A DNA stretch of 36,583 nt from a virus: IMG/VR virus record IMGVR_UViG_3300046703_000186, positions 1 through 36,583 of that record. One strand, given 5' to 3'. The notes beneath the pieces were generated by a model. It ran no database searches. It saw only the letters and a program-made list of their open reading frames with translations, and had not been told where the DNA came from. This document shows positions 11,689 through 36,583 of this stretch, in pieces. The first letter of the stretch is position 1. Each line of letters opens with the position of its first letter. A program made the translations under genes and the position numbers.

Positions 11689-11695
11689 TTTTCTA

Positions 11696-12709: not shown

Positions 12710-12731
12710 AAAAAAAGCGCCCGGAGGCGCC
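12710..12731 (-). terminator. Intrinsic terminator abutting the start codon of an HNH gene
   Basis: Minus strand GGCGCC-TCCG-GGCGC followed by seven T and then directly ATG of the downstream HNH gene. It follows the end of the other HNH gene by about 95 nt. Confidence 0.7.
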
Positions 12732-12824
12732 AATCCCTTTCTTTTTCTTGGTCCTGGTTTGCAGTAACTAACCCGATGACTAAGTCGGAATCTCCAGCTT
12801 GCTCACCCAACGGTTTTGCAACTT

Positions 12825-13661: not shown

Positions 13662-13692
13662 ATGAGTTAATCGTACACTGGCCCTCTGACAC

Positions 13693-14016
13693 TCACTCAC
13701 CGCGCCTTGTCTTACGGTTGTGGCAACGAGTACAAAGTGATTGAAAGTTACTCCACACGTCCTTGCCGCCATGCCGCTTAGACTTGATATGGTCGACCAC
13801 CTTGGCAGGCTCGCCACACTCCTCACACAAGGGATGCTGCCGTAGGTAAGCATCTCGCCTGCGCTTCCACCTCGAGTCATAACCTCGATCGGCAGCCGTG
13901 CCTCTTGTTGCCTTGTCCCTTCTGTATCCCTCGCCCCTGTGCTCATCACAGTACTGCTCATGCGTAAGGTTCGGGCAGCGAGGATATGCACATGGATGAG
14001 GTGGCTTACGAGGCAT
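13693..14016 (-). CDS. Phage HNH endonuclease
   Basis: A 107-aa protein of the compact HNH type that commonly precedes terminase genes. It starts with a zinc pair CAYPRCPNLTHEQYCDEHRG, then RGYDSRWKRRRDAYLRQHP, the HNH core LCEECGEPAKVVDHIKSKRH, and ends LCTRCHNRKTRRGE. In HK97-like phages such nucleases act with terminase and portal in DNA packaging. The ATG at 14016 overlaps the upstream gene by 11 nt. This is the most likely packaging-related member among the HNH genes here, and the two zinc-knuckle genes between it and terS may be later insertions. Confidence 0.92.
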   Translation of the reverse strand: MPRKPPHPCAYPRCPNLTHEQYCDEHRGEGYRRDKATRGTAADRGYDSRWKRRRDAYLRQHPLCEECGEPAKVVDHIKSKRHGGKDVWSNFQSLCTRCHNRKTRRGE

Positions 14017-14239
14017 GCCCGTTGACCACTGCCCACCACGCCTTCTCTAATAGATCCTCCAGGCCATACATCTTTGCCCATGTGTCGCGTCCCAATACAT
14101 GCACCCCCTTGCTCCCTGTGTGGTGTGGTACGCATAGGGGGATCTCATTGCCTGGCACTAACGCGCGTTTACCCCATGCACCACGGGTATAGAGATGATG
14201 TTTGTGGGCTGGAGTGGCGCCACAGATGTAGCATTGCAT
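14006..14239 (-). CDS. Small HNH-like zinc protein
   Basis: A 77-aa protein starting MQCYICGATPAHKHHLYTRG, followed by NEIPLCVPHHTGSKGVHVLG. The pairs CxxC and the later C-x2-HH with a preceding HH match the metal site of HNH-like proteins found in phages; the nuclease residues are not certain. It starts 11 nt after the encoded CCA of the tRNA gene and overlaps the next HNH gene. A role in recombination or packaging is possible, but I only claim the fold type. Confidence 0.7.
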   Translation of the reverse strand: MQCYICGATPAHKHHLYTRGAWGKRALVPGNEIPLCVPHHTGSKGVHVLGRDTWAKMYGLEDLLEKAWWAVVNGHAS

Positions 14240-14249
14240 TAGTGCCTAC

Positions 14250-14325
14250 TGGTCGCGGCGGTTGGATTCGAACCAACGGCCTCCTGGGTATGAGCCAGGC
14301 GAGCTGTCCACTGCTCCACGCCGCA
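14250..14325 (-). tRNA. tRNA with CAT anticodon (Met-type), encoded CCA
   Basis: Read on the minus strand: acceptor TGCGGCG/CGCCGCG (first pair T-G), D stem GAGC/GCTC with an 8-nt loop, anticodon stem CCTGG/CCAGG with loop CTCATAC, 5-nt variable region, T stem GTTGG/CCAAC with loop TTCGAAT, discriminator A and CCA. Total 76 nt. The anticodon is CAT. The anticodon stem lacks the three G-C pairs of initiators, so it is an elongator Met tRNA or possibly an Ile2 tRNA whose C34 is modified. It starts 18 nt after the end of a terminator's T-tract. Confidence 0.93.
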
Positions 14326-14342
14326 TTGTCTGGAAGCTCAAA

Positions 14343-14371
14343 CAGAAAAGGCCCGCCAATTGGGCGGACCT
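14343..14371 (-). terminator. Intrinsic terminator before the tRNA and late genes
   Basis: Minus strand stem AGGTCCGCC/GGCGGGCCT (9 bp with one G-T pair, 5-nt loop) followed by TTTTCTGTTT. It lies about 90 nt downstream of a strong promoter and just upstream of the tRNA. Confidence 0.85.
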
Positions 14372-14461
14372 CTAAAAATAATTCTAACTCTTGTCGCCTT
14401 ACTGCGGATACATTCCCTTATCCTTTCGCTAGACAACAGTTCTCTAACGTCTATTCTTGCT
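14343..14461 (-). ncRNA. Candidate short leader RNA between promoter and terminator
   Basis: A transcript starting near 14461 and ending at the terminator would be about 115-120 nt. It has no convincing coding frame (only a 4-codon ATG frame). It contains short self-complementary segments (TAGAC/GTCTA and GGATA/TATCC). It could be a small RNA, or the abortive leader of a late promoter that needs antitermination. Existence and start point are inferred from the promoter and terminator only. Confidence 0.45.
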
Positions 14462-14467
14462 AATTCT

Positions 14468-14495
14468 ATTCTATCGCCACAAGCGACACTGTCAA
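14468..14495 (-). promoter_or_regulatory. Sigma70-type promoter TTGACA-16-TAGAAT
   Basis: Minus strand -35 TTGACA at 14495-14490, 16-bp spacer, -10 TAGAAT at 14473-14468, with a second overlapping TAGAAT five bases on. It lies just after the stop of the last small early gene (14503). Confidence 0.75.
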
Positions 14496-14502
14496 TAGAC
14501 GC

Positions 14503-14724
14503 CTACAGCTCGCCCAGCTTGCGCTCCCAGTACAGCGCGTTCTCTTGGTGCTCTGTCTCCATTGCCTCGGCTATCGCGTAAGCGTCCAGATCCTTGATCA
14601 GGCTGTTGTCTTTCCTGCTGCCCCCGCGCTTGTTGAACGTGACAAAGGATCCATGTACACCCAACTGATAAGCTCTCTCGATCGCCCGCTTGTATACCTT
14701 TAACCACAAGTGATAGCTTCTCAA
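14503..14724 (-). CDS. Small basic protein, unknown
   Basis: A 73-aa protein starting at a TTG that overlaps the upstream stop (TTGA). It reads (M)RSYHLWLKVYKRAIERAYQL, then GVHGSFVTFNKRGGSRKDNS and an acidic C-terminal helix EHQENALYWERKLGEL. It is the last gene of the early operon, directly before the 14495 promoter. I do not recognise a family. The TTG start is the only one that keeps the coupled arrangement seen in the neighbouring genes. Confidence 0.6.
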   Translation of the reverse strand: MRSYHLWLKVYKRAIERAYQLGVHGSFVTFNKRGGSRKDNSLIKDLDAYAIAEAMETEHQENALYWERKLGEL

Positions 14725-15023
14725 TCTGGCCTCTTTATTTGTATTCGGAATGCCAACAGTGCGGATTGCCCGACATCGCCTACCCTTGATCTAAGCTTGC
14801 CTGAACCCTGGCTGAGTAACCACTCGATCTCTGCCTCGACAATATTAAAACGGTGGGTGATCTCATCGTGGTCCCTGTCTTGTCTGCGCCTCATCCTATC
14901 CTTGAGGTTCACTAACTCACGCTTGCAATCGGCATGATACGTTTTGCGGGCTGCTGGGAGGGGAAGTCCACAGAGCTCGCAAGGTATTTTTATATGAGTA
15001 ACGTCGTGAACAATATTAGTCAG
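14721..15023 (-). CDS. Small zinc-finger protein with an uncertain, non-ATG start
   Basis: The frame is open from just after the previous stop (15030) to a TGA at 14721 and encodes a zinc motif IPCELCGLPLPAARKTYHAD with a following CKREL, then a basic helix KDRMRRRQDRDHDEITHRF and an amphipathic region. The C-x2-C-x12-H-x2-C pattern argues that translation covers this part. However, no ATG, GTG or TTG lies upstream of it: only CTG (15023) or ATT (15014) would include the finger. A GTG at 14912 would give 63 aa without the finger. The start therefore remains open. Role unknown; the basic helix suggests nucleic acid binding. Confidence 0.55.
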   Translation of the reverse strand: MTNIVHDVTHIKIPCELCGLPLPAARKTYHADCKRELVNLKDRMRRRQDRDHDEITHRFNIVEAEIEWLLSQGSGKLRSRVGDVGQSALLAFRIQIKRPD

Positions 15024-15029
15024 ACAGCC

Positions 15030-15288
15030 TCAGTCCCCTCGCTCTTTCACATTGAAACCGAGTTGCTCAGCCAAAATCTTCGCTATGCCCTCTCTTGTGG
15101 GATCAACCCCGAATATGGAAGCAAACCACTCCAGATAAGTTATCCCCTTCTTCTCACAGTAATCCTTACATGTCATCCCTTCGCAATCGGGGCATGCTTT
15201 GATCTCGATGATCTTTCCTTCCCCCCCAATTTTCAAGATCATCTAGCGATGCCTTATTCAGTGTCTCGCAAAATGGACATGCATACAT
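15030..15288 (-). CDS. Zinc-ribbon protein split by a frameshift at a G7 run
   Basis: An ATG overlapping the upstream stop (TAATG at 15290-15286) opens MYACPFCETLNKASLDDLEN with a CxxC pair. The frame meets seven G on the minus strand (15227-15221). One base out of register beyond it is IIEIKACPDCEGMTCKDYC, with the second and third cysteine pairs, ending in ILAEQLGFNVKERGD at 15030. The total length is 3n+1, so removal of one G fuses both parts into an 85-aa zinc-ribbon protein. Taken literally, there are a 40-aa frame and a separate 70-aa frame starting at 15242 with no ribosome site. The fusion is the better explanation. Sequencing error or real slippage cannot be told apart here. Confidence 0.6.
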
Positions 15289-15488
15289 TAGGCCTCCCTT
15301 GCTTTCAGCATCGCATCAGCAAAGTGGTAAGCCGCTTCAGCGATAATTTCAGAACTCGCTCCGTGCCTTATGCAACCTATCAGCGCACACCCCGCAAAGA
15401 AGTCCCTGATATTGGGCTGACCATAGAACCGACAGGTTTTGCATTCTTCGGGTTCAGCGATGCAATCTTTACAAGCTTCGGGTAGCAT
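15288..15488 (-). CDS. Small cysteine-rich protein
   Basis: A 66-aa protein (MLPEACKDCIAEPEECKTCR) with C-x2-C-x7-C-x2-C at the start, later GCALIGC and a helical tail EAAYHFADAMLKAREA. The ATG shares a base with the upstream stop (TGATG), and its own TAA shares a base with the next ATG. The cysteine spacing suggests one zinc site plus two further cysteines. No function recognised. Confidence 0.7.
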   Translation of the reverse strand: MLPEACKDCIAEPEECKTCRFYGQPNIRDFFAGCALIGCIRHGASSEIIAEAAYHFADAMLKAREA

Positions 15489-15649
15489 CACGCCTCCAAA
15501 CACTCCGGGCAGTTTATAGCCTTCTTCGTCCGCTTCCAGTCAACAAAGGGCACCAGTTGCTTGCGCCGGCAGCGCACCAGGTAGCCACCCTTCGCCTTGA
15601 CCCGGGTGCCATGATGTACTAGCCCGCCGTCACGCCGCTGGATTCTCAT
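15488..15649 (-). CDS. Small basic zinc-binding protein
   Basis: A 53-aa frame (MRIQRRDGGLVHHGTRVKAK) with YLVRCRRKQLVPFVDWKRTK and a final NCPECLEA. The three cysteines and strongly basic composition suggest a nucleic-acid-binding mini-protein. The ATG overlaps the upstream stop (ATGA at 15649-15646), and GGGGG lies eight bases before it. The TGA overlaps the next start. The frame is too short for standard gene callers but is held on both sides by coupling. Confidence 0.7.
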   Translation of the reverse strand: MRIQRRDGGLVHHGTRVKAKGGYLVRCRRKQLVPFVDWKRTKKAINCPECLEA

Positions 15650-15789
15650 CGGACCCCCTTGCGAAAGTCCTTCCTCCGGCCGACAAAGACTCTGGCAATG
15701 TGCCCTTTCTTGTCATCTATCGCGACAACAAGGACTCGCCCGAAAAGAGCTAGGACATGGTCTACGCAACCCCAAGTGAAGTTAAGCAT
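15646..15789 (-). CDS. Small protein of unknown function
   Basis: A 47-aa frame (MLNFTWGCVDHVLALFGRVL) that continues VVAIDDKKGHIARVFVGRR and ends in a basic tail. The shape is two beta-strand-like hydrophobic stretches and a basic end. The ATG lies 2 nt after the upstream TGA. A longer frame backwards would overlap the upstream gene heavily and has no ribosome site, so the shorter start was chosen. Unknown function. Confidence 0.6.
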   Translation of the reverse strand: MLNFTWGCVDHVLALFGRVLVVAIDDKKGHIARVFVGRRKDFRKGVR

Positions 15790-15791
15790 TC

Positions 15792-16283
15792 TCAATCGTC
15801 CCCCCCAGGGTCGATGGTGCATCGGCAATTCGGATGCAGGGGTGGAAAGAAAACGACGTCCGTTATCACAAGATGGCCGAACCACTTCTTGTACCTTATG
15901 CCGGTGTCGATAGCGGTCGCGGGATAATGCTCATGCTTAAACCTCAGTATGAACCGCTGGAATCGCCCGCCATGCGCCCCATATTTGCGCAGCATCTCGT
16001 TACGAATGAACGCCTCTTTGTTGACCTCGATTATGGTGTCTAGCACATTCTCATCTACATCGAAACAACCAAACTCAGCCATCTCCTCCTCCTTGTGACC
16101 GTCTTTGTAGTGAATTGCGCCCCTTGTGACTCCATGCCCACAACAGGCAGCGTCAACACCAGGCAGATAACCAAGGCATGCGTCATATCCCTCCGGGGTT
16201 GGCAACCTACCGCACCTAGCACATGAAATGTCGGCTGCGCCTTCTGTAACCCAATGGCCACGTGATAGAAAACGGACGGTCAC
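15792..16283 (-). CDS. Cysteine-rich two-part protein with possible internal start
   Basis: A 163-aa protein starting at a GTG that overlaps the upstream stop. Residues 18-60 carry ISCARCGRLPTPEGYDACLG then LPGVDAACCGHGV, a cysteine signature I have seen in small phage proteins. After HKEEE, the frame has an ATG (16082) preceded by AAGGAGGAGGAG, an excellent ribosome site, so the last 96 residues (MAEFGCFDVDENVLDTIIEV...) may also be made alone. This second part ends with a Cys pair (LHPNCRCTIDPGGDD) resembling the end of MuF-type or toxin domains. Whether it is one bifunctional gene or two fused genes is open. Confidence 0.7.
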   Translation of the reverse strand: MTVRFLSRGHWVTEGAADISCARCGRLPTPEGYDACLGYLPGVDAACCGHGVTRGAIHYKDGHKEEEMAEFGCFDVDENVLDTIIEVNKEAFIRNEMLRKYGAHGGRFQRFILRFKHEHYPATAIDTGIRYKKWFGHLVITDVVFFPPLHPNCRCTIDPGGDD

Positions 16284-16432
16284 TCTTCGCCCCTCTCCTT
16301 AATGTCGTCCCATGCAACGCGCCCGCTATCGACCACGTCTTGATAATCACGCTCATGCTTGATCGCCCATGCCAGGATCCCAGCTAAGCGGATCATCAGC
16401 TGGGCCATTTGCTCGAGCTGGCTATCGGTCAT
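16280..16432 (-). CDS. Small helical protein
   Basis: A 50-aa frame (MTDSQLEQMAQLMIRLAGIL) continuing AWAIKHERDYQDVVDSGRVA and ending in a charged tail that contains AAGGAGAGG, the ribosome site region of the next gene. It overlaps the upstream gene by 3 codons and its TGA overlaps the GTG of the next gene. The amphipathic helix is not long enough to be a clear membrane anchor. Unknown function. Confidence 0.65.
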   Translation of the reverse strand: MTDSQLEQMAQLMIRLAGILAWAIKHERDYQDVVDSGRVAWDDIKERGEE

Positions 16433-16628
16433 GGGGATCCATCGCCTCTTTGATTTTCCTGAGTGCTTCTTCGCCCGCCTTTGCTATGGGCAACAGAACC
16501 TCCGCCAGTGCTTCATGCAGTTCCAAGAAAGCCTGCCTCAAATCCTTCAAGTCCTCCGAGAACTCAACGTCTATATCTTGCTTGTCAGGAGGAGGCTTCT
16601 TACGAAGGCAGAGGCGGCAGCGTTTCAT
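16422..16628 (-). CDS. Small protein with N-terminal CxxC and coiled coil
   Basis: A 68-aa protein: MKRCRLCLRKKPPPDKQDID, then a long heptad-like helix FSEDLKDLRQAFLELHEALA that continues to EALRKIKEAMDPHDR. ATGA overlap with the upstream stop. A single CxxC pair could form a shared zinc site in a dimer held by the coiled coil; this is inference. No family recognised. Confidence 0.7.
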   Translation of the reverse strand: MKRCRLCLRKKPPPDKQDIDVEFSEDLKDLRQAFLELHEALAEVLLPIAKAGEEALRKIKEAMDPHDR

Positions 16629-17279
16629 CTTTTGCCCGCCATGTACCCTCGCAGGTAGGCAAGGCGCTGGGGACTATCGTATCCACTGGCTCCAACGACT
16701 ACCTCTAAGAGTTCGTCAAGGGAAAGAGCGATGAGCGGCTCAAAAGTTCCTTCCATCTGAGCCTCCACTGCCTTTGCCGACGGGACAGGTATCGGTTTTG
16801 ACGGCGGTTTAGACGGCCTCGAGGGTGCTCCCAGATGACTGCCCATTGGCTTCTCCCCCGCCTTCTTCGGCTTCTGCCCTGGCCTCTTCCCAGCTTCCCT
16901 GCTCTTTCGCTGCGCCTCGTTATAATGCTTCTTACATACCGCCCTATGCAGTACACGTTCTTCCTCGCACTCCTCGATGCTGCATTTCGTCTCTTCGCTC
17001 ACCTGAATTCCCCCTTCTTTCGCCCGGCACTCCGGGCATAACCGCGGCTTCTCCTGGCTGCTTTCCGGTATCTCAAACTTCTTGCGGCACTTCGGGTTCC
17101 TGCACAAAGCCTTCCCTACAATCCCGTCCGCCAGGCTCTTCACGCTCTGCTCCTCACTCTCCCGCCTCAGTGCCTCGTCGATGTCGTCGGTGCCGTACTT
17201 CTTGCATAACTGCTTGAACTGTCGTTCCCAGACTGTCTCGTCGAGCGTGTTTGTCAGCGAGGGCCCCCCCCCGGCTCAT
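16625..17279 (-). CDS. Zinc-finger protein interrupted by a G9-run frameshift
   Basis: An ATG that overlaps the upstream stop (ATGA, 17279-17276) is followed by ATGAGCC and nine G. In the literal frame it continues into an unrelated arginine-rich sequence. One base away the frame is PSLTNTLDETVWERQFKQLC, KKYGTDDIDEALRRESEE, then KALCRNPKCRKKFEIPESSQ, CPECRAKEG, CSIEECEEERVLHRAVCKKH, a Pro/Lys linker, and an acidic helical end. The total from ATG to stop is 3n+1. With eight G the protein is 217 aa. A GTG at 17143 starts the in-frame remainder (172 aa) but would skip good coding sequence. Two zinc modules suggest nucleic acid binding. Confidence 0.65.
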
Positions 17280-17720: not shown

Positions 17721-17858
17721 TCAGGCAAGTAAGGAAAATGCAGCCGTGCTTCTTGCTCTGATATATCTGGAGCAATAACAATCTCCCGTTCCTTCACAGT
17801 TTCCACATTCGATAAACCCGTCACCTGAACAGTCGGTGCAAACGCTTCTCAAGATCAT
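17721..17858 (-). CDS. DnaJ-like mini zinc finger protein
   Basis: A 45-aa frame (MILRSVCTDCSGDGFIECGN) with CEGTGDCYCSRYIRARSTAA following. The repeats CxxCxGxG and CxxCxGxGxCxC copy the zinc finger of DnaJ-type chaperones and of many phage mini-proteins. The ATG overlaps the ParB-like stop (ATGA). Short, but coupling and the cysteine pattern make it convincing. Confidence 0.75.
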   Translation of the reverse strand: MILRSVCTDCSGDGFIECGNCEGTGDCYCSRYIRARSTAAFSLLA

Positions 17859-19165
17859 GGGTTCTCACCATCCGGGATGACCTTCTCAAACTCCAGAGCA
17901 AGTTTGGGAACGTACCCACGCTTGTAGAGTTCCTTTCTGCAATCCCGGGTCCGCCAGCATCCCGAGCAACCCTCGAGGGTCTCCCTGAAAGCCTCCTGGA
18001 CACGCTCGTCCGTCGCCTCCCTCAGCTCCGCGGTTGTATTTACCGGGACCGCCGCCAGAAACTTCTCGAGCTTCTTCTTGTAACAGGCGTCATCTTCGGC
18101 AAGGCAATATTCGTAGGGGCTCTCAATGCCTCTCTCATAATGAAATGCGTTGGGAACCTCATAGCGATCCGTGCATTTATCGCAGACCTTCCCGAAGCGC
18201 CCCGACTTCATCGTCTTCCAGCCGCCATTGACGTATCGTTGCCTCATGATCCGCTTCTTCTTGCAGCGCTTGACCTTTTCGAGGGCTGCCGCTTCCCGCT
18301 CACGCTTATATTCGAGGCAGGTCTGACTCTCCGAGTTGCAGAAAACGCCGCGGTGGTCGGTCCCCAACCAGACCGCTACCTGGTAGTCGAGGTCGAGCAT
18401 GAATTGACACACGTTCTTTTCGTCGTTCCAGCCCTCGCAGCAAGGCGGGATCTCCTGCTTTGGATTCTTGTACGTCTTGCAGAAACCGGAGAGCGCTCTC
18501 TCCTCGAGACCGGCACCGAATTCGGAGACGTGCTTCTCGAGCTTCCGAACATTGTTGACGTCGCCTCGGTAGTTGGAATGTGCGTAGCCTCTCGAGAAGT
18601 CCTTGATGATCCGCTTGCGGATCTCCGGCGTCTCTATCCCACCGACAAGCGACCATGTCTCCATGTCCCTGCCGCCGGCCTTCACAAACGCCTCGAGGAC
18701 CTCGGGATATTTCCCAAGGGAGTACCTGGTCCCCACGTACTTGATGCTCTTCCCCAGAGCCTTCGCAACCGCGGACCGCTTCATGCCGTTCTCGATGAGC
18801 TCCACAATCGCCGGAGCTTCCTCGGCAATGGAGAGGTCAGCACGTTGCAGGTTCTCTACCAGGGCGAGTTGCACAGCAGCAGCCTTGTCCGCCGGCGGGT
18901 CGATAACGCGACAAGGGATCTCCGACATGCCGGCAAGTTTACAGGCCTGGCGCCGGCGGTCCCCGCAGAGAACTGTGTAGTGTTCGTTCTCGGGCCCACT
19001 GCCTTTATCGTTGCTCAGCGACATGTAGACCACCAACGGCTGGAGTAGGCCGAGCTCCTTGATACTTGCGGCGAGCTCATCGAGAGCGGTGGGGTCAAAA
19101 TCCTTGCGCGGGTTGTGCGGATTCGGTTGTAGCTTTGCCAGGGTTATCATCTTCAGATCGCTCAT
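17855..19165 (-). CDS. ParB-like protein with a long cysteine-rich C-terminal region
   Basis: A 436-aa protein. Residues 5-115 form a ParB/Spo0J-type nucleotide-binding domain: KLQPNPHNPRKDFDPTALDE, SIKELGLLQPLVV, CGDRRRQACKLAG (the GxRRxxA box) and LALVENLQRADLS. A helical HTH-like middle follows (MKRSAVAKALGKSIKYVGTR). The C-terminal 220 residues contain more than fifteen cysteines in pairs, for example CCEGWNDEKNVC, KVCDKCTDRYEV and CSGCWRTRDCRKEL. No ParA lies nearby, so this may be a nuclease-like or DNA-binding relative used in phage DNA metabolism rather than partition. The ATG at 19165 overlaps the previous stop (ATGA). Confidence 0.85.
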   Translation of the reverse strand: MSDLKMITLAKLQPNPHNPRKDFDPTALDELAASIKELGLLQPLVVYMSLSNDKGSGPENEHYTVLCGDRRRQACKLAGMSEIPCRVIDPPADKAAAVQLALVENLQRADLSIAEEAPAIVELIENGMKRSAVAKALGKSIKYVGTRYSLGKYPEVLEAFVKAGGRDMETWSLVGGIETPEIRKRIIKDFSRGYAHSNYRGDVNNVRKLEKHVSEFGAGLEERALSGFCKTYKNPKQEIPPCCEGWNDEKNVCQFMLDLDYQVAVWLGTDHRGVFCNSESQTCLEYKREREAAALEKVKRCKKKRIMRQRYVNGGWKTMKSGRFGKVCDKCTDRYEVPNAFHYERGIESPYEYCLAEDDACYKKKLEKFLAAVPVNTTAELREATDERVQEAFRETLEGCSGCWRTRDCRKELYKRGYVPKLALEFEKVIPDGENP

Positions 19166-20034
19166 AACCCCTCCGGTGGCTCGTAGGTGTTGACCTGCCA
19201 TTGCACTTGATCCACGGTTGTCATAGTGCCGTTACCTACGCAGTAGCCGGGGCAATCATGCATGGTCTGAGGGCAACCGAAGTACTTAACCAAGAAGTCG
19301 AAGTTGGCGGCGATACCTTCTTCCCAGTTGTAGAATCCGTACTTGTAATCTTCGCCAACCATCCCCCATGCATTGTAAGAATTGCCGCCGGATTTATTGC
19401 ACTGGCCAGGTGGCAGGGGATGATTATATGTTCTCATCCCATTGGTGCTTTCCGCTTCCGCGATACCCGCCGACAACGATCCTGGTATGCCGGTGCGCTC
19501 TTGATTCTGAATGTAGTACTCACCGCACCCTTGCATAGGGCTACCCTTGTGAGCTAGGTAAGTATCAATGCGCCACACGGCTATCCTGCGTTCCCTTGCA
19601 GCTCTAGCCTCAACCACCGCCGCTTGCATCATCTCAATCGCTGGCCGATCCCGCTCAAGGGGGGCAGGTGCTAGAGACCCAGAGTCACCTTGACTATGCG
19701 CTTTCCCCCCCCCTTCGGCGGTTTCATACAGCAGCGGCTCATCTAAGGGTAGGGTGGTGACTGGGGACGTGGCCGAGGGCGAACTTGCCCCGTACAGGCT
19801 GACCGGCTCGTCGTGTCCGTCACCACCCAAAGGGGCAGCGGGGGAAGAAGACCGTGCGGCAACTCTTGGGGATATTGGAATGGCCTTCTTTTCGCCCCCC
19901 GCTATAATTATCAATGCTCCAATCAACAAAGCACCTATGATTGTCGATATAATGAGCATAGCGGTTATCTGTGTGCTGGCCCTGGCAGGGGATTTTGTGC
20001 GCGGGTGGCCGCTATATCTTCGTGGGTATTTCAT
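19162..20034 (-). CDS. Membrane-anchored muralytic (transglycosylase-like) protein
   Basis: A 290-aa protein. A basic N-terminus is followed by one membrane helix at about 27-46 (ITAMLIISTIIGALLIGALI), then about 130 residues of low-complexity Ser/Ala/Pro/Gly linker, including a poly-Gly codon run of nine G. The C-terminal 100 residues resemble a lysozyme-like or lytic transglycosylase domain: PGSLSAGIAEAESTNGMRTY with a likely catalytic Glu, NSYNAWGMVG, YNWEEGIAANFDFLVKYFG. Topology would place this domain outside the inner membrane. The ATG at 20034 has GGGAGG six bases upstream. It lies in the DNA-metabolism operon and overlaps the ParB-like gene, far from the amidase. Function as an exo-lysin, entry or host-modification enzyme is open. 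Confidence 0.7.
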   Translation of the reverse strand: MKYPRRYSGHPRTKSPARASTQITAMLIISTIIGALLIGALIIIAGGEKKAIPISPRVAARSSSPAAPLGGDGHDEPVSLYGASSPSATSPVTTLPLDEPLLYETAEGGGKAHSQGDSGSLAPAPLERDRPAIEMMQAAVVEARAARERRIAVWRIDTYLAHKGSPMQGCGEYYIQNQERTGIPGSLSAGIAEAESTNGMRTYNHPLPPGQCNKSGGNSYNAWGMVGEDYKYGFYNWEEGIAANFDFLVKYFGCPQTMHDCPGYCVGNGTMTTVDQVQWQVNTYEPPEGL

Positions 20035-26402: not shown

Positions 26403-27494
26403 TTACGCAGACTTCCGCAAAAATACAAAAGGAGTTGCCCAAGCATCATATGTTAAAGCGCCAGCAGGAAAAGAACTTGGCAATGCTCCATATGCGTTCG
26501 TTATGCGTATGCCACTAATCCTATAAGTTGTTGCTGGGGTATCAATACCAAAAATTGGTATGTTAGAACCCTCCCTTGCACACGTCATGTTCGGGCTAGC
26601 AACTCCGGCTAAACACACCAGACCATAATACCCAGGGGAAAGAGTGGTGTTAATTACAGCTTCTGCTGTTACGTGTGCGCCAGATACATCAAGCGCTCCG
26701 CTATCAACTATTAGGCTTCCTGGCCTATCGCTACCAGGTGTCCAATTGTAAATTCCAATCCTACATACGGCACCAGGTGTATTATTGGTATAACCAGTTC
26801 TAACAGCAATCCTATCAAAAGTTTCTGAATTTGGTGTGACTACAAAAAGAAGGGCACAAAGCGCATTATAGGTACAAGTACCAGATGTTGGATCAAAACT
26901 ATCTGTTGTATAATACCTTCCAACTATGCGGAACCCCCAAGGTGAAAAGGATGGCCCTGTAGCGCCTTGTGCTCCGGGATCACCCTGCGGCCCTTGTGCT
27001 CCGGGATCACCTTGGGGCCCTTGTGCTCCGGGATCACCCTGCGGCCCTTGTGCTCCGGGATCACCCTGCGGCCCTTGTGCTCCGGGATCACCCTGCGGCC
27101 CTGTTGAACCCTGTATTCCCTGGGGACCTTGTGCTCCGGGATCACCCTGCGGCCCTGTTGAACCCTGTATTCCCTGGGGACCTTGTGCTCCGGGATCACC
27201 TTCTTCCCCCGCCGGACCTTGTGCCCCTGCTGGACCTTGTGCTCCGGGATCACCTGCTGGACCTTGTGCCCCTGCTGGACCTTGTGCTCCTGTGGCGCCT
27301 TGTGCTCCGGGATCACCCTGGGGACCCCCCGCCGGACCTTGTGCCCCTGCTGGACCTTGTGCTCCGGGATCACCTGGAGCGCCTTGTGCTCCGGGATCAC
27401 CTTCTTCCCCCTGGGGACCGGGGGGACCCTGCTTTGCAACTTTCACAACTCTTAATTGGGGTTGGCTGAGCACAACCGTAACAGTGTAACTCAT
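26403..27494 (-). CDS. Collagen-like fibre protein
   Basis: A 363-aa protein. A short N-terminal strand region ([20 protein letters not shown]) is followed by roughly 55 Gly-X-Y triplets, mainly [12 protein letters not shown], with a one-residue break near the second GPAG and two IQGSTGPQ inserts. The remaining 175 residues form a beta-rich head: [52 protein letters not shown]. This is a trimeric fibre layout, with the triple helix as a shaft and the head for binding. The ATG at 27494 overlaps the upstream stop (ATGA). It lies between lysis genes and so may be a head or tail appendage rather than a core tail part. Confidence 0.85.
26943..27435. repeat. Collagen-coding tandem repeat DNA
   Basis: The plus strand holds many copies of CTTGTGCTCCGGGATCACC, often in a 27-nt unit with CTGCGGCC. 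A longer 63-nt unit containing CCCTGTTGAACCCTG occurs twice (about 27098-27190). Repeats are in frame and encode the Gly-X-Y shaft, so the copy number can change without frameshift and is a risk for assembly. Confidence 0.85.
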
Positions 27495-27844
27495 GATTGA
27501 TACCCTCCGGTTATGTCTTTGCAAACTGGCAACTCCGCAACGAAAAGAGTTTCTTTCACCCCTGTTGACCAGGTCACCTCCACGTCCAACATATATGCGG
27601 AGTCACCCTCGGTTGATTCCTCCATCACGTCATTGGACACGGTGATCGTAAAGGAGCCGTTCCCGTCTTCGCGGGATATGTCTACCCCGTCAGTAGTCTC
27701 GGTTACGTCATCCCTGGCATGCAAGGTGAATTTGATATCCGCGTCGGTGAGGACGATGGGCTCGCCGTCTTCATTTTCTATCGCTATGGGCAGGACGAAC
27801 GTATCACCGTGGTATACACTCTCGAGCGTTATCATCTCAGCCAC
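27491..27844 (-). CDS. Beta-domain phage structural-type protein
   Basis: A 117-aa protein starting at GTG with AGGAGG nine bases upstream. It reads [40 protein letters not shown] and later [20 protein letters not shown], a beta-sandwich pattern like the N-terminal BppU-type or Ig-like domains that bind fibres to baseplates. It is coupled to the collagen-like gene and may anchor that fibre. A terminator-like hairpin precedes its ribosome site. The family assignment is by pattern only. Confidence 0.7.
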
Positions 27845-27916: not shown

Positions 27917-28828
27917 TTACTTTGGAACCTCGCGGATGCTGATGTCGATAGGGTCAGCGCTCTTGATAATGAGTTTGAAAGACCCCTTGAGCCCCGCGAA
28001 TTTCGGCTGCTGGAGGATACGGCTCATGCTGTGGTCATGCTGCACAGGTGTCTTAAACTCTTGGCCGTCCGAAGGAGTTGCCGGGAACGATCCGTCTTTG
28101 CCCTCGAAGATGAAAACCACCTCTCGGGTCTTGCCGTCTGTCGTCACCCAGTAGTCGGCCCTGTCTCGGTAGCAGTCGATCTTCCTAGCTTCCGTAACTT
28201 GGTTATAGTCCCAGGATTGCATATCGTCCTCCTTGGGTTTTACGGGCCCATGCTTGATATAGGCCAGCACGTCGTTTTGTAGCTTTCCGTTGGCAACGAA
28301 CTGCGCCAGCAGGTTCGCCGGGCAATCGGTACCCTTGCCCCAGGGATCCCCAGGACGGCAAGGGGGCAATTCTTGATGGCCGAATATCCAGCGGCCAGCC
28401 AGCGGCTTGAACCCGGGACGCTTATAGATGTCGGCGCAGAGGGCTACCAGTGCGGAGTATTGCGGCTCTTGCATGACGGTCGAGCCGTGGAAATCGCCCT
28501 GATTCTCGATGCCTACACCCTTGGAGCTCCAGCCGAAGACCTGCCCACCACCGGAGTTATAGATAGCGCCGCTGTTGGCAGTCCACAAACGGTTCTCATA
28601 AACTCGCCCCGATTGAAAGCAGGAATAGGCTTGCAAGATGTCCCAGGCGCCATACTTCGATTCGTGTTCTGACTGCCACATCCTCATCAAGCCCTGCTCC
28701 TGGCCGACAGACAAGAGGCCGTTGGGCGAGTCAGTATAGTGAATGATGATTACGTTTTTTTCATAGGGCCCGGTCGGTGCCCCGGCAGGTGAAGCAAGCC
28801 CTGATTGCGAACGGGGGATGACAGTCAT
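27917..28828 (-). CDS. N-acetylmuramoyl-L-alanine amidase endolysin
   Basis: A 303-aa protein. Residues 20-185 form an amidase_2/PGRP domain: KNVIIIHYTDSPNG with the first zinc His, YENRLWTANSGAIYNSGGG, SKGVGIENQGDFHGS, WIFGHQELPPCRPGDPWGKG and TDCPANLL with the second zinc ligand pair and Cys. It cuts the bond between MurNAc and the stem peptide and releases progeny. Residues 200-303 (DDMQSWDYNQVTEARKIDCY and onward) form a separate C-terminal region, possibly for wall binding. No signal peptide, so it would need a holin. ATGA overlap with the acetyltransferase gene. Confidence 0.9.
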   Translation of the reverse strand: MTVIPRSQSGLASPAGAPTGPYEKNVIIIHYTDSPNGLLSVGQEQGLMRMWQSEHESKYGAWDILQAYSCFQSGRVYENRLWTANSGAIYNSGGGQVFGWSSKGVGIENQGDFHGSTVMQEPQYSALVALCADIYKRPGFKPLAGRWIFGHQELPPCRPGDPWGKGTDCPANLLAQFVANGKLQNDVLAYIKHGPVKPKEDDMQSWDYNQVTEARKIDCYRDRADYWVTTDGKTREVVFIFEGKDGSFPATPSDGQEFKTPVQHDHSMSRILQQPKFAGLKGSFKLIIKSADPIDISIREVPK

Positions 28829-29367
28829 GATACCTCCAGAATCAACGCCGGATCATTGCTCATAAGCGCCGGCAGATTTTCCCTGATCTTGTCTTCCGGC
28901 CAGTCCCACCAGCGAAGCTCGAGCAGCCTTTCCACCGTCTCATCATCAAATCGCCGGTAGATCTCCTTGGCGGGATTGCCGACGACCACCGCATAGGGCC
29001 GGACGTCCTTCGAGACGACGGCGAATGCACCAATGACCGCGCCATCACCAACCGTTATCCCATGCAGGATCTTGGATCCGGATCCGAGCCAAACATCATT
29101 TCCGATATAGATCTCGTTAGGTCTGTGATATAGCTCGAGATCCCCGGGCGCCCAGGCATTGAGATTGTCGAATGGGTAACTTGAGATCCGGTCGATGTTG
29201 TGATCCCCGCCGAACTCCAGTTCCACACCGTCTGCTATCGAACAGAAGCGACCGATAACTAACTTAGATCCTTCACCCCCGACGACCTTCGGCAAGCCGT
29301 ATGTATATTCGCCGATCTCACACCACGATCCAGTGAAGTGGTCCTTCAGGTAAGGGACTCGGCTCAT
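28825..29367 (-). CDS. Hexapeptide-repeat acetyltransferase (CatB/WbbJ type)
   Basis: A 180-aa protein with left-handed beta-helix repeats: LVIGRFCSIADGVELEFGGD, the loop with HNIDRISSYPFDN, EIYIGNDVWLGSGSKILHGI, TVGDGAVIGAFAVVSKDVRP, YAVVVGNPAKEIYRRFDDE. These match the CatB-like xenobiotic or sugar O-acetyltransferases, with the catalytic His in the GGDHN loop. In this setting, beside glycosyltransferases, a sugar acceptor is more likely than an antibiotic. The ATG at 29367 overlaps the upstream stop (ATGA). It closes the sugar cassette. Confidence 0.88.
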   Translation of the reverse strand: MSRVPYLKDHFTGSWCEIGEYTYGLPKVVGGEGSKLVIGRFCSIADGVELEFGGDHNIDRISSYPFDNLNAWAPGDLELYHRPNEIYIGNDVWLGSGSKILHGITVGDGAVIGAFAVVSKDVRPYAVVVGNPAKEIYRRFDDETVERLLELRWWDWPEDKIRENLPALMSNDPALILEVS

Positions 29368-30032
29368 GCCTTGCTCACCCAAAACGAACCTCCCACCATG
29401 TTCTTTTCCGAGAGTCCGTATTTTCCCCGGATCTCATCAGGGTATTGTCTGACCATAAAGTGAACCGGGAAGATCACCTTGAAATTACTGCCTCCCATGA
29501 GCATCGCCCTCAAAATGTACTGCTCGTTATACCCAGCACTGATCCATTGGGGCGGGTAATCCCAGGGTAAAAATATGTCGTGAAAATGGATCACCACTCC
29601 GCTCTTCAATCCTGGTAATACTTCAAAGAATAGAAACGGGAGTTCGGAACCGTACCAGAAAACATGAGACGTATCTATGAAAAGGATGTCCCCCGGTTGC
29701 AGTAGGTCGAAAGTCTCAAGGGATGTTTCCTGCACCGGGCCCTTTATAAGGTCGAGAGAGTCAATGTCAATCCTCGGTTCGGGGTCGATGCAAAGATGTT
29801 TGGCGCCCGTAGTCTCCGATATCAGCAGGGAAGAGAATCCACAGCCGGCCTCGATTATCAAATCCGGTTGTAGTGATCTGAGCATGCCCTGCAAGGTATA
29901 GGCATCCGCTCCACCAAACCACGAGTTATCAAGGTAATACCCCGGACCCTTATCCTGAATAGGGGTTATCTCGAAACCATGGAGAATATCCAGTGCCTCT
30001 TCGTCCTGGTAGTCAACCATGTCAAACTGCAT
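29364..30032 (-). CDS. SAM-dependent methyltransferase
   Basis: A 222-aa protein (MQFDMVDYQDEEALDILHGF). The SAM motif is PDLIIEAGCGFSSLLISETT, then HLCIDPEPRIDIDS with the acidic ribose contact, and GDILFIDTSHVFWYGSELPF with KSGVVIHFHDIFLPWDY. The pattern fits class I methyltransferases of the Methyltransf_24 type, known from sugar and O-antigen loci. The ATG at 30032 has GGAAGTGG upstream and overlaps the glycosyltransferase gene by 11 nt. The substrate is probably a glycan made by the neighbouring enzymes; this is inference. Confidence 0.85.
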   Translation of the reverse strand: MQFDMVDYQDEEALDILHGFEITPIQDKGPGYYLDNSWFGGADAYTLQGMLRSLQPDLIIEAGCGFSSLLISETTGAKHLCIDPEPRIDIDSLDLIKGPVQETSLETFDLLQPGDILFIDTSHVFWYGSELPFLFFEVLPGLKSGVVIHFHDIFLPWDYPPQWISAGYNEQYILRAMLMGGSNFKVIFPVHFMVRQYPDEIRGKYGLSEKNMVGGSFWVSKA

Positions 30033-31371
30033 GCGGCCACTTCCGATCAAAAAGGTCTCTGTCCTTTTCGCGCCTGATCACGAAATCGGTCAAGGTGCTT
30101 ACAGTCTTGCTGTGGAAATGATGGATTTCCACATTCACGCTCTGCACGGGTTCATAACCCATCTCGCAGAGCCGGATATAATAATCGTTATCTCCGTACC
30201 AGTACACGAACTGCTCATCAAAGGGTCCAACCTGGTCATAGGCTTCCCTCGACAAAAGGAAACAGAACCCTGCGAAACCATTCGGATGTTTCCCGGGCCG
30301 ATCGGGTATCTTCGTCCGCAATGGCCGTCGTCCGAGCATCTTGTTGTGAACCTCGAAATTCGCACGGGCCCTCTCCCCATGCTTATAGGAGGGGCATACT
30401 ACGTGTTCCCCGTGCTCGAGCAACTTCTCCGCCCACATATCTGGAAGCACCAGGTCGTTGTTAAGAATCGCCAGGTGAGACCCCTGGGCTGCCTTGCAGC
30501 CTTGATTCCAGGATCGCGACATTCCAACATTGCGCTCGTTGCGAATGACCGTTACTCCCTCGAGGATCTCCGTGGTCTCGTCGGTGGAACCGTTATCGAT
30601 GATGATGATCTCATACGGAATATGGACGGTCTGCTGAATGTTCCCGATGATCGCCACAGTGTACTGTGCCTGATTCATCACCGGGATAATGATCGACAGA
30701 AGACCGATCTCGGGATTCACCGGTGCTATCTCCCTGGATTCCCATGCCATGTAATTCTGTTCTTTTGTCACTCCCACGCTGGGCCCACATTGCGTTCCCG
30801 CCACCACCTTATCTACCCAGACCGGTTTCAGACGCTGCGAAAGGTTATGCGCCGCGTTGAAGTCGCCGGAATACTTGCCGTGCCACTGACCATATTTCTT
30901 GTGCCGCGAATGGTAGACGATGCTCGAGCATGGAATGTCGTTCAGCACAAGCTTCCGGCCGAACGCCTTCGGCATGATATTCTTTCCCAGCAAGAACTTG
31001 CAGATGATGAGATTGCCAGCGTCCCTCATATGTGGCTCAAGGGTAGCCAGAGCATCTGGGGTGAGAAACTCGTCATCATCATCCAGGACCATTATCCAGC
31101 CGTCTTTGACCGCCTCCAGCAGATCATTGACATACAGGTTATAGAGCGCGTCTCGATAGTGGACTTGGCCATTTGGTACAGGTGGGGAAATCTTGCCGAT
31201 CGCGGGGACCAGGACGTCTGCCTCCCCAGCGTATGAACAGGGCCGATCGATGCTCACTATATGGCGAATCGTCCCCTCCCATTTCTGGGCCAGTAAAGAT
31301 TCCCGGTGGCGCCGAAAATGATTCGGGCGATCACACGTCCTGGTCAAGATATTCAGCAGGGGTTTAGCCAC
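30022..31371 (-). CDS. Two-domain GT2-type glycosyltransferase
   Basis: A 449-aa protein starting at a GTG that overlaps the upstream gene by 8 nt. Residues 1-200 form a first GT-A-like domain: LLNILTRTCDRPNHFRRHRE, WIMVLDDDDEFLTPDALATL with a DxD-like acidic run. Residues 222-449 form a second, canonical GT2 domain: LSIIIPVMNQAQYT, YEIIIIDNGSTDETTEI, HLAILNNDLVLPDMW, FAGFCFLLSREAYDQVGPFD, GDNDYYIRLCEMGYE. Both have metal-binding acidic motifs, so the protein could add two sugars in turn. Substrates are not visible from sequence. Confidence 0.88.
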   Translation of the reverse strand: MAKPLLNILTRTCDRPNHFRRHRESLLAQKWEGTIRHIVSIDRPCSYAGEADVLVPAIGKISPPVPNGQVHYRDALYNLYVNDLLEAVKDGWIMVLDDDDEFLTPDALATLEPHMRDAGNLIICKFLLGKNIMPKAFGRKLVLNDIPCSSIVYHSRHKKYGQWHGKYSGDFNAAHNLSQRLKPVWVDKVVAGTQCGPSVGVTKEQNYMAWESREIAPVNPEIGLLSIIIPVMNQAQYTVAIIGNIQQTVHIPYEIIIIDNGSTDETTEILEGVTVIRNERNVGMSRSWNQGCKAAQGSHLAILNNDLVLPDMWAEKLLEHGEHVVCPSYKHGERARANFEVHNKMLGRRPLRTKIPDRPGKHPNGFAGFCFLLSREAYDQVGPFDEQFVYWYGDNDYYIRLCEMGYEPVQSVNVEIHHFHSKTVSTLTDFVIRREKDRDLFDRKWPHAV

Positions 31372-32014
31372 GCTCCAGTACCTTCCTCATCCTGTCCGGC
31401 CGTCCCGTCGCCCACCTGTACCGCTTCCACATTTGCAGGTTTACCCGCTGATTGAACTGCCTTTTGGTAGCATCCTCGACATGCCAGAGGTGGTAAACAT
31501 CGCCCGGGATGAATACAGCAGGCTGGAACATGGTGTCCACCGCGCGGCTGAAACTCTCGTCCTCGCCGCCCCAGCCTTCATACCGCGGATCGAAACCCCC
31601 TACCTCGTCAAATAAGCGGCGGGAAATGATATTGACCCCGCCGGCGTATTTGTACTTATGGCGCTCACTCTCAACAGGCAGCAAATCGAACGGTAAGTCC
31701 TCATAACCCAGGAGCCCCTCCGTGGCCTCCTGGGTGAGGTTGAGACACCGGTTATATGGAACTACCCATTCACCCTGGAGAAGCCCCTGTGACAGTTGTT
31801 TCGCTGTAATAACAGTATCCGCGTCGATGATAGCGAGTGTATCGCCGGTCGCGAAGGAAACGCCGTGGTTGACGGCCTCCGCTTTCGACCTCCGGGAGCT
31901 CACGCCAATTTCGACCTCAAACCCTTGGGCTAGGTAGTAGGCATGCACCCACCACATAACCTTCTGGCGCCATTCGTCGTCGCCGTAAAAGGGGATGATG
32001 ATCGTTGTGTCCAT
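31364..32014 (-). CDS. GT2-type glycosyltransferase, galactosyltransferase-like
   Basis: A 216-aa protein (MDTTIIIPFYGDDEWRQKVM). Motifs are SRRSKAEAVNHGVSFATGDT, LAIIDADTVITAKQLSQGL (DxD), YKYAGGVNIISRRLFDEVGG, FDPRYEGWGGEDESFSRAVD with the ED base, then the C-terminal VYHLWHVEDATKR. The GGED part is typical of GT families with a galactosyltransferase-like C-terminus. The ATG at 32014 overlaps the preceding stop as TGATG; an earlier start would run into the membrane protein gene. It opens the sugar cassette. Confidence 0.88.
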   Translation of the reverse strand: MDTTIIIPFYGDDEWRQKVMWWVHAYYLAQGFEVEIGVSSRRSKAEAVNHGVSFATGDTLAIIDADTVITAKQLSQGLLQGEWVVPYNRCLNLTQEATEGLLGYEDLPFDLLPVESERHKYKYAGGVNIISRRLFDEVGGFDPRYEGWGGEDESFSRAVDTMFQPAVFIPGDVYHLWHVEDATKRQFNQRVNLQMWKRYRWATGRPDRMRKVLERG

Positions 32015-32412
32015 CAGATAACATGGGTCAGAGCGAGAATGGTAAATAGAACTCCGAGAAAAGTGGCAAGGCCAAAGAGGGCTTTCCATGTCCAGCTCGG
32101 CACCTTGAAAATAAGTTCGAGAGAGGTCAGCCGCTTTTCCGTTTTCCCTGCCGCGGTATCCATTCCATCCATTCGTTCTGTCAAATTGTGGTCATCACGT
32201 TCGCGGCGGGTCACTTCATTGTCGATAGTAGTCAGCAGGTTGTTGGTGATCTCCAATTGCGTCTTGTGGACCTCGCCGATCTCGCGGCGTAATTCATTCA
32301 CGCCATTCTCGATACGCCCTATGCTTCCGTTCTGCGCTCGCTGATAGCCTGCTTGCTGTTCTACGTACCGGGTGAACTCGGGCACCTGCAAGCAGTTCTC
32401 GTGGTCACCCAT
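32014..32412 (-). CDS. Coiled-coil protein with C-terminal membrane helix
   Basis: A 132-aa protein (MGDHENCLQVPEFTRYVEQQ). A long helical stretch from about 25 to 100 (NGSIGRIENGVNELRREIGE, TNNLLTTIDNEVTRRERDDH) is followed by a single membrane helix WKALFGLATFLGVLFTILAL. This resembles XhlA-type or other phage lysis-helper membrane proteins, but the family has about 90 residues. AGGAGG lies seven bases before the ATG. Located between tail fibre and sugar genes. A holin-partner role is one option; anchoring of the sugar enzymes is another. Confidence 0.7.
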   Translation of the reverse strand: MGDHENCLQVPEFTRYVEQQAGYQRAQNGSIGRIENGVNELRREIGEVHKTQLEITNNLLTTIDNEVTRRERDDHNLTERMDGMDTAAGKTEKRLTSLELIFKVPSWTWKALFGLATFLGVLFTILALTHVI

Positions 32413-33163: not shown

Positions 33164-34197
33164 GCCGTCACCTCTTCGCTCTCTATGTCGAATTCGGTTT
33201 CAGCTATCGCAAACGTAGACATTTCGTTAAGCGTGGCAGCGTCATTGACATTTGTTTGCACTGACGCCAGGTCCTCTATGAATACCAACGACCCAGGCTT
33301 GATAAGTCGGACATCAGATTCGACCCCGGTGTTGACATCATAGATGCGCTCGAGTGTTAGGTCTGAGGCCGGTCGCATGGTCGTACTCTCCTGCAAGGCA
33401 ACTTCGGCTTTCTGCTGCGCCATTGCCTCCGTGCAGTATTCCTCGATCACGAGTATCCCGTCACATCTGCCGTACAGTTTAGAACTAGCCTGATCGGGGC
33501 CATCATCCGGCCACCAGAAGGTTTCCCAGGTCGTACCGTCAGTGGTGTATTTGACCAGCACGTAGTTTGTGATGCTATCCCGCTCATACATGAGGCTGGT
33601 GTGGCAGTCCTCCATGCGAACCTTGTAAGAGATCATGCTGGGTTTCGGGTAGAAGTCGAACTTGCGGTCCGCCCCCACACCCATAACATAGCCGTTATAC
33701 TCGTTGATTTTTCCCAATATCGTGTTGTAGTAGAGGTCGTCTCCCAGGTCCAGGTCTGCCGGGAAGATGTAATCATCGGTGTAAATGTTTCCTCTCTCGA
33801 ACTCCAGGTCGGTGTCCGCCATCAGGTTCGCAAGTATCCAGTCCGACCCTTTCATGCCGGCAGTCAATGGCGTCGCGTTAATCCTCTTGGTCAACAGAGC
33901 AAAGTATCCATAACAGGTAACCTCTATGCCGGTGTCCTCCTCCGCCTGTATGTTCACCGAGGATATAAGGCCCTCCCAGGCTACGCGATCGCCCGCCGAT
34001 AGTTTGACCTTGTTTCTGATTTGGAGGTCCGGGTAGCTGAAGCGCACATCGCGCACTATGGGAAATGTGCAAGCGTCGTAGCCTACGCCATCCTTGGCTG
34101 AGAACCGGAGGCCGTTTATGCCAGGACTGATATCCTGATATTTCACGCTCCCGGTGACGTCGTATACTTCTATGATGAGTTTGGGCCAGATTACCAT
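33160..34197 (-). CDS. Tail-tip hub-like protein
   Basis: A 345-aa protein (MVIWPKLIIEVYDVTGSVKY). The first 190 residues follow the plan of siphovirus baseplate hub/tail-associated proteins: a domain that lays out a frame (NGLRFSAKDGVGYDACTFPI, VKLSAGDRVAWEGLISSVNI, GIEVTCYGYFALLTKRI), then helical LADTDLEFERGNI. The end carries SLVFIEDLASVQTNVNDAAT. It shares its start with the stop of the distal tail gene (ATGGTAA overlap). It probably forms the trimeric plug or hub below the distal tail ring. Family assigned by pattern and position. Confidence 0.75.
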   Translation of the reverse strand: MVIWPKLIIEVYDVTGSVKYQDISPGINGLRFSAKDGVGYDACTFPIVRDVRFSYPDLQIRNKVKLSAGDRVAWEGLISSVNIQAEEDTGIEVTCYGYFALLTKRINATPLTAGMKGSDWILANLMADTDLEFERGNIYTDDYIFPADLDLGDDLYYNTILGKINEYNGYVMGVGADRKFDFYPKPSMISYKVRMEDCHTSLMYERDSITNYVLVKYTTDGTTWETFWWPDDGPDQASSKLYGRCDGILVIEEYCTEAMAQQKAEVALQESTTMRPASDLTLERIYDVNTGVESDVRLIKPGSLVFIEDLASVQTNVNDAATLNEMSTFAIAETEFDIESEEVTA

Positions 34198-36200
34198 CGG
34201 TAAACCGGCCTATATTTGAATGTGGGGATCACGACGGGATTCAGTTGATCGTCATTGTTCACGCTGTTGACAGCTAACAACGTGAAGTTGCAGCCTTTGG
34301 GATCTATCACAAAGTTTGGCGTTCCCTTAGTGTGCATGGGGTCATACACCTGCGCCTTGTTGAGCGTGCCGTCAATGGACGTTAGAATCTGCTTTGAATG
34401 GGAGTCGAGTATGAGATATGGGGTTGAGTATTCCGAGACCTCAACAAAAGATCGGTCTACCGGTATCAATGCAATCTCGTCATACCAGAAGTTGTCAGTG
34501 AGTCCCGGGTCAGTCTCCAACTGGATAACCTGCTCTAACGTTGACTCATCCGCATTGTCGCTTATTAAATGAGTCGGTATTTGTATGGAGTCCATCCGCT
34601 CGGAGAGAAGTGCCATTTCGGTAAACACATGCTGTTGTGATTGGTCTGATTCGAGTCTTTGGGGTACGGTGCTCGGGCTTATGATTTCCCCGCCCGTGGT
34701 CCGGATAAAGGACTTGAGCGTAACTCCGTGAAACTGAGGAGCTGCTGTACCATCAAAGGAAAACCCGGCTGTTGGAATGACCAGCCCTCGGTGTGAATCT
34801 ATGGGAAATGTCGCCTCGATGACAGCCCGGTCAAGTTCCATCATGGACATGTCGTCGAAGTATAGCCTGGCCGGATACCCGTAAAAATGCGCCGCTGCCC
34901 ATGCCCGCCAATATGGTTGTAGCTGAGTCGTGCCCGCAGGAAGACTTGTGTAGGGCAAGAAAAAGACCTTCTGCTCCCATGATGTCGGTGGCAGGTAGTT
35001 AAAGGCGGTTATGGTGCCTAAGTAGTTGTCGCTCACATCATGACAATGTATGCCCAGTAGCGAGCGCATATACTTAGATTCGTTGCCCGTCCTCCTAAAC
35101 CATGCGGAGATTATGTGGTCCTTGGTAGGATCGATTGTATAAAGCTCTGTGAATAAGCGACCTATTATTCCAGGGTGGTATCCCCATTCAATGCTAGCTA
35201 CGGCACAGGCGGTCCCCGCACTTCCAGTATGCACCGGAGCAACAGAGGCTCCAAAGATCACCTGGGTTATTTCATTGCTGAACCTCTCTGGAGTCCAGTG
35301 GTCCCAGATGGTTTCAGCCCCTATGGAATCGTATTCTTCAAGGCCCCCATCTGTAAGCATCTCTGCATCCAATACCGTGGACACTAAGCGATAGTCACCT
35401 GTCCTGCGAGTAGCGAGGGAAACCGCCGCCCCGGCGGTCGGCTCCACGACGGGCTCCCAATCCTCAGAATATAGGTAGCGCTCGCCGAGTATGTAGTGTG
35501 TGGGGTACGGAGTCTGCGCCTCCAAGTAGATGTCACACAGCGCGAGATCGTCACCTTTGACGTTCTCTGGAGCTATGGTTATCTTGGTGGGTGTAAGGCC
35601 GGTATCTATGTCAAAGTCCGCGTCGGTGAGTTCTTCCCACCTGCCATAAGGCTGCTTCGCGTCCAGGTTGCAGGAGATGATCGCCATGTTGGCATCCTGA
35701 TATTCCCGGTCCCAGGCTCGGCTATCTTCTATCTGGGCTGCTGGAAAGCATTCGTAATAGCGCTCGTCCTGATCCTCCGTGCCGCTTTCAAAGAGGTGCA
35801 TGAGGTATATCTCATCGCGCCGCATCTCGATCATAAGCGCCTCCACCTTGTCGTGGAGGTCCGCTTCGTCATCTCCGATAACCTTGATCTCGAGGGGCAC
35901 GACGATTGTTTCAATTTTGGTCTGGGTCGGTGAGAGTTTCTTGTAATCAGCCAGTGGACTTTCCGCAAACTTCTGTGTCTGAGAAGCGGGCTGCGGAGCA
36001 AAGGTATTCAGCTGGACGAAATAATCAGTGCAGTCATTGATGTCCAGCAGGATGTTCCCAGTGGTCCCATCGGTTCTGACGTATTCTTTGTCGACAAATT
36101 TCAAGATCATGTGATCAACCACAACGGACACTCCTGCCGTAACCTCCGGTGGAACCGCGGTATACGTTATTTCTAGCGCGGGCGGTAGCGAAACGTCCAT
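34191..36200 (-). CDS. Distal-tail-like protein with inserted carbohydrate-binding-like domain
   Basis: A 669-aa protein (MDVSLPPALEITYTAVPPEV). The N-terminal 230 residues read like a tail-ring protein (VPLEIKVIGDDEADLHDKVE, RYYECFPAAQIEDSRAWDRE, MAIISCNLDAKQPYGRWEEL). Residues about 290-470 look like a beta-sandwich of the carbohydrate-binding type: LTDGGLEEYDSIGAETIWDH, HIISAWFRRTGNESKYMRSL, YPARLYFDDMSMMELDRAVI. The last 200 residues return to tail-like beta sequence, ending TFKYRPVYRW. The ATG overlaps the TGA of the frame behind the amber codon (TGATG). Attachment to host glycans is a reasonable inference. Confidence 0.75.
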   Translation of the reverse strand: MDVSLPPALEITYTAVPPEVTAGVSVVVDHMILKFVDKEYVRTDGTTGNILLDINDCTDYFVQLNTFAPQPASQTQKFAESPLADYKKLSPTQTKIETIVVPLEIKVIGDDEADLHDKVEALMIEMRRDEIYLMHLFESGTEDQDERYYECFPAAQIEDSRAWDREYQDANMAIISCNLDAKQPYGRWEELTDADFDIDTGLTPTKITIAPENVKGDDLALCDIYLEAQTPYPTHYILGERYLYSEDWEPVVEPTAGAAVSLATRRTGDYRLVSTVLDAEMLTDGGLEEYDSIGAETIWDHWTPERFSNEITQVIFGASVAPVHTGSAGTACAVASIEWGYHPGIIGRLFTELYTIDPTKDHIISAWFRRTGNESKYMRSLLGIHCHDVSDNYLGTITAFNYLPPTSWEQKVFFLPYTSLPAGTTQLQPYWRAWAAAHFYGYPARLYFDDMSMMELDRAVIEATFPIDSHRGLVIPTAGFSFDGTAAPQFHGVTLKSFIRTTGGEIISPSTVPQRLESDQSQQHVFTEMALLSERMDSIQIPTHLISDNADESTLEQVIQLETDPGLTDNFWYDEIALIPVDRSFVEVSEYSTPYLILDSHSKQILTSIDGTLNKAQVYDPMHTKGTPNFVIDPKGCNFTLLAVNSVNNDDQLNPVVIPTFKYRPVYRW

Positions 36201-36583
36201 CAGCTTGGCCCCTGCCCAATATCTATTACAAATATGCCCGTATAATCGGGGGTCAGCGTGAACGCCTCACCGTTCGGGCTAAAGTTCTGCCCCATGTTGT
36301 AATAAGCCAGTATTTTCATATCAGCCGCTGTTGCCGGTGAAGAGTCATATATCACGGCCTAGCGGATATTCGTTAGAGTGGCATTCGCCCACTCGATAGC
36401 AGTCGCCGTAATCCCATAGTCGTTGAGGCTATACGCGAGAGACAAACCTCCCGCGTCATATCCAGTACCGGAAACCTCATTGGCGAAGTCAGCCGCACAA
36501 GACCATGTCGACGGATCGGCCTGGTCGGTGAAGAGGGCACATTTCAGATCAGCCCCGGCATTTGTGAAGTCGGTATATTGTTT
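36200..36583 (-). CDS. 3' part of small tail-tip protein with in-frame amber codon
   Basis: Continuing from 61-1, the frame reads KQYTDFTNAGADLKCALFTD, then ADFANEVSGTGYDAGGLSLA and TAIEWANATLTNIR, and meets TAG at 36361-36359. The same frame then continues AVIYDSSPATAADMKILAYY, NMGQNFSPNGEAFTLTPDYT, GIFVIDIGQGPS and ends in TGA at 36202-36200, which shares its A with the ATG of the next gene. With the amber codon read, the protein is 144 aa. The part after TAG has no ribosome site or convincing start of its own, and small phage proteins of this type usually read an aromatic residue at that point. Either the codon is read through, or it is a mutation or sequence error. Confidence 0.75.

Follow-up and report, generated by a model that had tools for sequence, protein, structure and literature searches.

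A single in-frame amber codon at a conserved tyrosine place in a phrog_644-family phage gene: very probably a recent nonsense change or a sequence error

The A1 protein of phage Q-beta is a virion protein made by programmed readthrough, in which a stop codon within a structural gene is followed by an open frame, and the short form that ends at this stop is a complete coat protein. A second kind of system is found in the stop-recoded phages that use code 15, in which TAG is read as Gln (PMC9523058). In-frame stops in prokaryotic genes are also often short-lived (PMC7918605). Here we describe a gene from the virus record IMGVR_UViG_3300046703_000186, analysed over positions 1 to 36,583 (“the window” below means this whole stretch of 36,583 nucleotides). 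It resembles the Q-beta gene in carrying a stop followed by an open frame within a structural gene and the code 15 phages in carrying an in-frame TAG within a late structural gene; unlike the Q-beta stop, its stop halves one domain. Its relatives in the phrog_644 family, among them Gordonia phage Sixama gp104, Rhodococcus phage REQ3 Orf58 and satellite phage MiniFlayer gp6, have in common with it a whole-length domain, at 30-40% identity, and, once the window ends are joined, a length of about 144 residues, and an amino acid, mostly Tyr, stands in them where this gene has TAG. From these sequence comparisons we consider it very probable that a conserved Tyr codon became TAG through one recent nonsense substitution, be it a real variant or a base error.

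The locus comprises the following features, all on the minus strand:

36362-36583, minus strand: part of the phrog_644 gene 5' of the TAG, cut at the window end
36359-36361, minus strand: amber codon TAG, in frame, at residue 75 of the in-window part and at the conserved-Tyr place
36203-36358, minus strand: 52 sense codons 3' of the TAG, the C-terminal part of the same domain by profile match and identity
36200-36202, minus strand: TGA that closes the whole frame and shares its final A with the ATG behind it
34191-36200, minus strand: the 669-aa tail gene, whose ATG is preceded by a Shine-Dalgarno-like AGGGG
1-61, minus strand: the missing gene start, an ATG at 61-59 behind AGGAGG, joined in frame via the 10-base overlap AAACAATATA

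The minus-strand letters round the amber site are ...ACG AAT ATC CGC TAG GCC GTG ATA TAT GAC..., and, as an earlier note on this DNA had described, the TAG at 36361-36359 is followed by 52 open codons and then by TGATG, whose ATG (36200-36198) starts the 669-aa gene. An open stretch of this length is not rare, since 14% of the minus-strand TAG triplets in this window have at least 52 open codons behind them. The stretch is coding, in agreement with its earlier description as protein-like, because homology and codon usage indicate this, and not openness alone. Codon usage prefers the phrog_644 frame on either side of the TAG; for the 52-codon stretch this frame scores +5.0 and the two alternatives -6.9 and -4.6. 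The phrog_644 frame has no frameshift and no stop besides the TAG. The second codon behind the TAG is an in-frame GTG, upstream of which inspection of the sequence revealed no Shine-Dalgarno motif. The overlap with the following gene had been taken to imply that ribosomes regularly reach the TGA. The argument that TGATG proves passage through the TAG does not hold, because an intact ancestor would hand down the same overlap, and because the 669-aa gene has its own AGGGG and restart at the GTG behind the TAG is possible.

The read-through frame matches phrog_644 across the TAG (E 8.2e-12, residues 11-122 on profile positions 26-144 of 174). Matches to 22 phage records, chiefly from phages of Gordonia, Rhodococcus and Tsukamurella, all span 80% or more of the frame, and no break in the phrog_644 domain is seen in the relatives from phage records and viral contigs. 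A phrog_644 gene would be expected to have an unbroken frame; here the TAG interrupts it, and by homology the gene is an interrupted family copy. The name “tail-tip gene” given to it earlier is not established, phrog_644 being without an assigned function; one relative, Sixama gp104, is annotated as a minor tail protein. At the place of the TAG the homologues have Tyr in 82 of 90 cases, Ile in 6, His in 2 and a stop in none (codons TAT 65, TAC 17, Ile 6, His 2), the 90 places not being independent, as many loci are close kin and in a few cases one phage is present in two collections; a thinned alignment of 31 rows agrees, with Tyr in 27 homologues and Ile in 3. This distribution bears out the mutated Tyr-type codon that the earlier note had offered as one explanation. 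That note had also considered homologues ending at the same place with unrelated sequence behind; the alignment returned mostly Tyr there, and no homologue that ends.

The relatives found are only about 30-44% identical to the phrog_644 frame, and identity to the homologues is 38.6% before the TAG and 39.1% after it. Because identity is thus equal on both sides (39%), either the lesion arose recently or ribosomes read through the codon. To judge from profile and identity, the two sides of the TAG are one domain, not a short gene with an extension. Searches for near relatives found none with the read-through protein alone, none with the 669-aa gene (in viral contigs and phage records) and none with the 345-aa gene, and the exact DNA pattern round the TAG matched no near relative. 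Among 20 records with related terminases that were searched for the phrog_644 gene, two carry it, neither with an internal stop, and 13 of 793 sampled bacterial genomes have a relative. The only TAG flagged there, listed inside a match at one locus (L158), was rejected as a parallel case, being the normal end of its gene.

The start of the gene lies at the other end of the record. Positions 1-10 and 36574-36583 of the window are identical over 10 bases (AAACAATATA), and joining the ends at this overlap supplies an in-frame ATG start codon directly after the tape-measure gene, the motif AGGAGG lying a few bases ahead of it. The joined frame has 144 codons, with the TAG counted, and most homologues have 144 or 145 residues, 144 being the modal length; since the joined frame matches the family length, the whole frame corresponds to the ancestral gene. 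No end repeat was recognised for the record. As the join restores one in-frame gene, the window probably represents a whole genome that was opened within the phrog_644 gene, and the locus should be annotated as one interrupted phrog_644-family gene spanning the record ends.

An AlphaFold model of the read-through protein, built with 30 homologues as alignment (mean pLDDT 84.1, pTM 0.79), places the TAG residue 75 inside a central beta strand (73-80), with three more strands behind it. According to the model, a product terminated at the TAG would be without about half of the sheet and is for this reason unlikely to be a functional short form. No significant match emerged in the PDB, whether compared by sequence or by fold, and viral fold matches are weak and to unnamed phage proteins.

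These results bear on whether the TAG could end a product that the phage uses. The earlier note had put forward programmed readthrough giving a minority long form; the TAG would then end a short form with a function of its own. The open frame with its coding signal up to TGATG agrees with this. The homologues, however, make the long form alone; in the 90 homologue places (about 30-44% identical) there is neither a stop nor an end at this place, and the short form would break within a beta strand and not at a domain end. The 104 nt downstream of the TAG also fold into no stable structure (z -1.2), although some readthrough sites need none. On this evidence programmed readthrough is very unlikely indeed. 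Just as hard to credit is a split gene, in which translation would stop at the TAG and begin anew at the GTG two codons on, the two fragments then assembling: the GTG stands in frame, but it has no visible Shine-Dalgarno motif upstream, the break falls mid-strand and no homologue is split there.

The use of TAG elsewhere in the window bears on the remaining alternative, that the host or a cell state decodes UAG, by an amber suppressor tRNA or with pyrrolysine, such that the full-length protein is still made and the TAG is tolerated. TAG terminates seven other genes, the major capsid and tape-measure genes among them, and behind these seven TAGs there is either no known homology or the next gene from its own start codon. 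Genome-wide reassignment of TAG was rejected for this reason. Whereas code 15 genomes hold many in-frame TAGs and suppressor tRNAs, a single in-frame TAG was recognised in the window, and the phage carries neither a tRNA with anticodon CTA nor any tRNA other than a tRNA-Met with anticodon CAT, as the earlier note had correctly stated in excluding the phage's own tRNA as a suppressor. A UAG-decoding host would fit the intact gene on both sides of the TAG, with no decay behind it, and the nearest terminases in named genomes, which are from Sporotomaculum and a Deltaproteobacteria assembly, come from groups of which some members use pyrrolysine. Pyrrolysyl-tRNA synthetase (PylS) was below the cut-off in both of these genomes, which may not be hosts. 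With seven ordinary TAG ends, one in-frame TAG and a phage tRNA that reads Met set against it, decoding by the host appears improbable, and the more specific version, in which the phage keeps one sense UAG in a virion protein while UAG means stop elsewhere, is scarcely to be expected. If the host did decode UAG, the full-length virion protein would be made only while its UAG-decoding tRNA is active.

The reading that we prefer is that one Tyr codon mid-way in a one-domain virion-type protein of the phrog_644 family was turned into TAG, carried by the assembled phage variant or produced by a base error near the contig end. We give a real nonsense variant roughly even chances, and a sequence error is possible if doubtful. 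Some 220 bases separate the TAG from the contig end, near which coverage may be low. Where the host has no amber suppressor, translation would give a fragment of 91 residues, probably unfolded; the 669-aa gene could nonetheless be translated, either through its own ribosome-binding site or by a restart. We infer a recent origin for the change and a lack of function for the fragment. Against a mutation or error stands the intact remainder of the gene, which would be equally expected if the TAG were decoded as an amino acid. A near-identical strain (L092), from metagenome 3300046710, shares 99.6% identity with the window over most of 8562-16849, the TAG site being outside the covered part. Inside genes the two differ by substitutions and in-frame indels only, with no stops and no frameshifts, and the window is therefore not generally error-ridden in the part that this strain covers. 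Between the two there is also a cluster of changes with a 3-base indel at 15895-15922 and another at about 16295-16655, where a few hundred bases are inserted.

If a nonsense change or error is the right explanation, the locus carries little weight, being a single gene copy, damaged or wrongly sequenced, of a phage from a metagenome; the finding is ordinary. It does offer a caution, in that a long coding frame behind a stop, with a gene coupled to it, mimics recoding until homologues show one domain on both sides of the stop.

Other genes of the window, all on the minus strand, deserve brief mention. A collagen-like protein with a 27-base repeat (26403-27524; Pfam Collagen, E 3.9e-25) is likely a tail fibre. 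Between the tail genes and the amidase lysin lies a run of sugar-type genes (28825-32089) encoding a hexapeptide transferase, a methyltransferase and two glycosyltransferases, a notable cargo for a 36-kb phage, and these perhaps modify the virion or the host surface. Adjoining the terminase genes are two or three genes for HNH-type endonucleases (11696-14016), with repeats that resemble zinc ribbons, and a ParB/KorB-like protein (17855-19201) suggests plasmid-like maintenance or a regulator.
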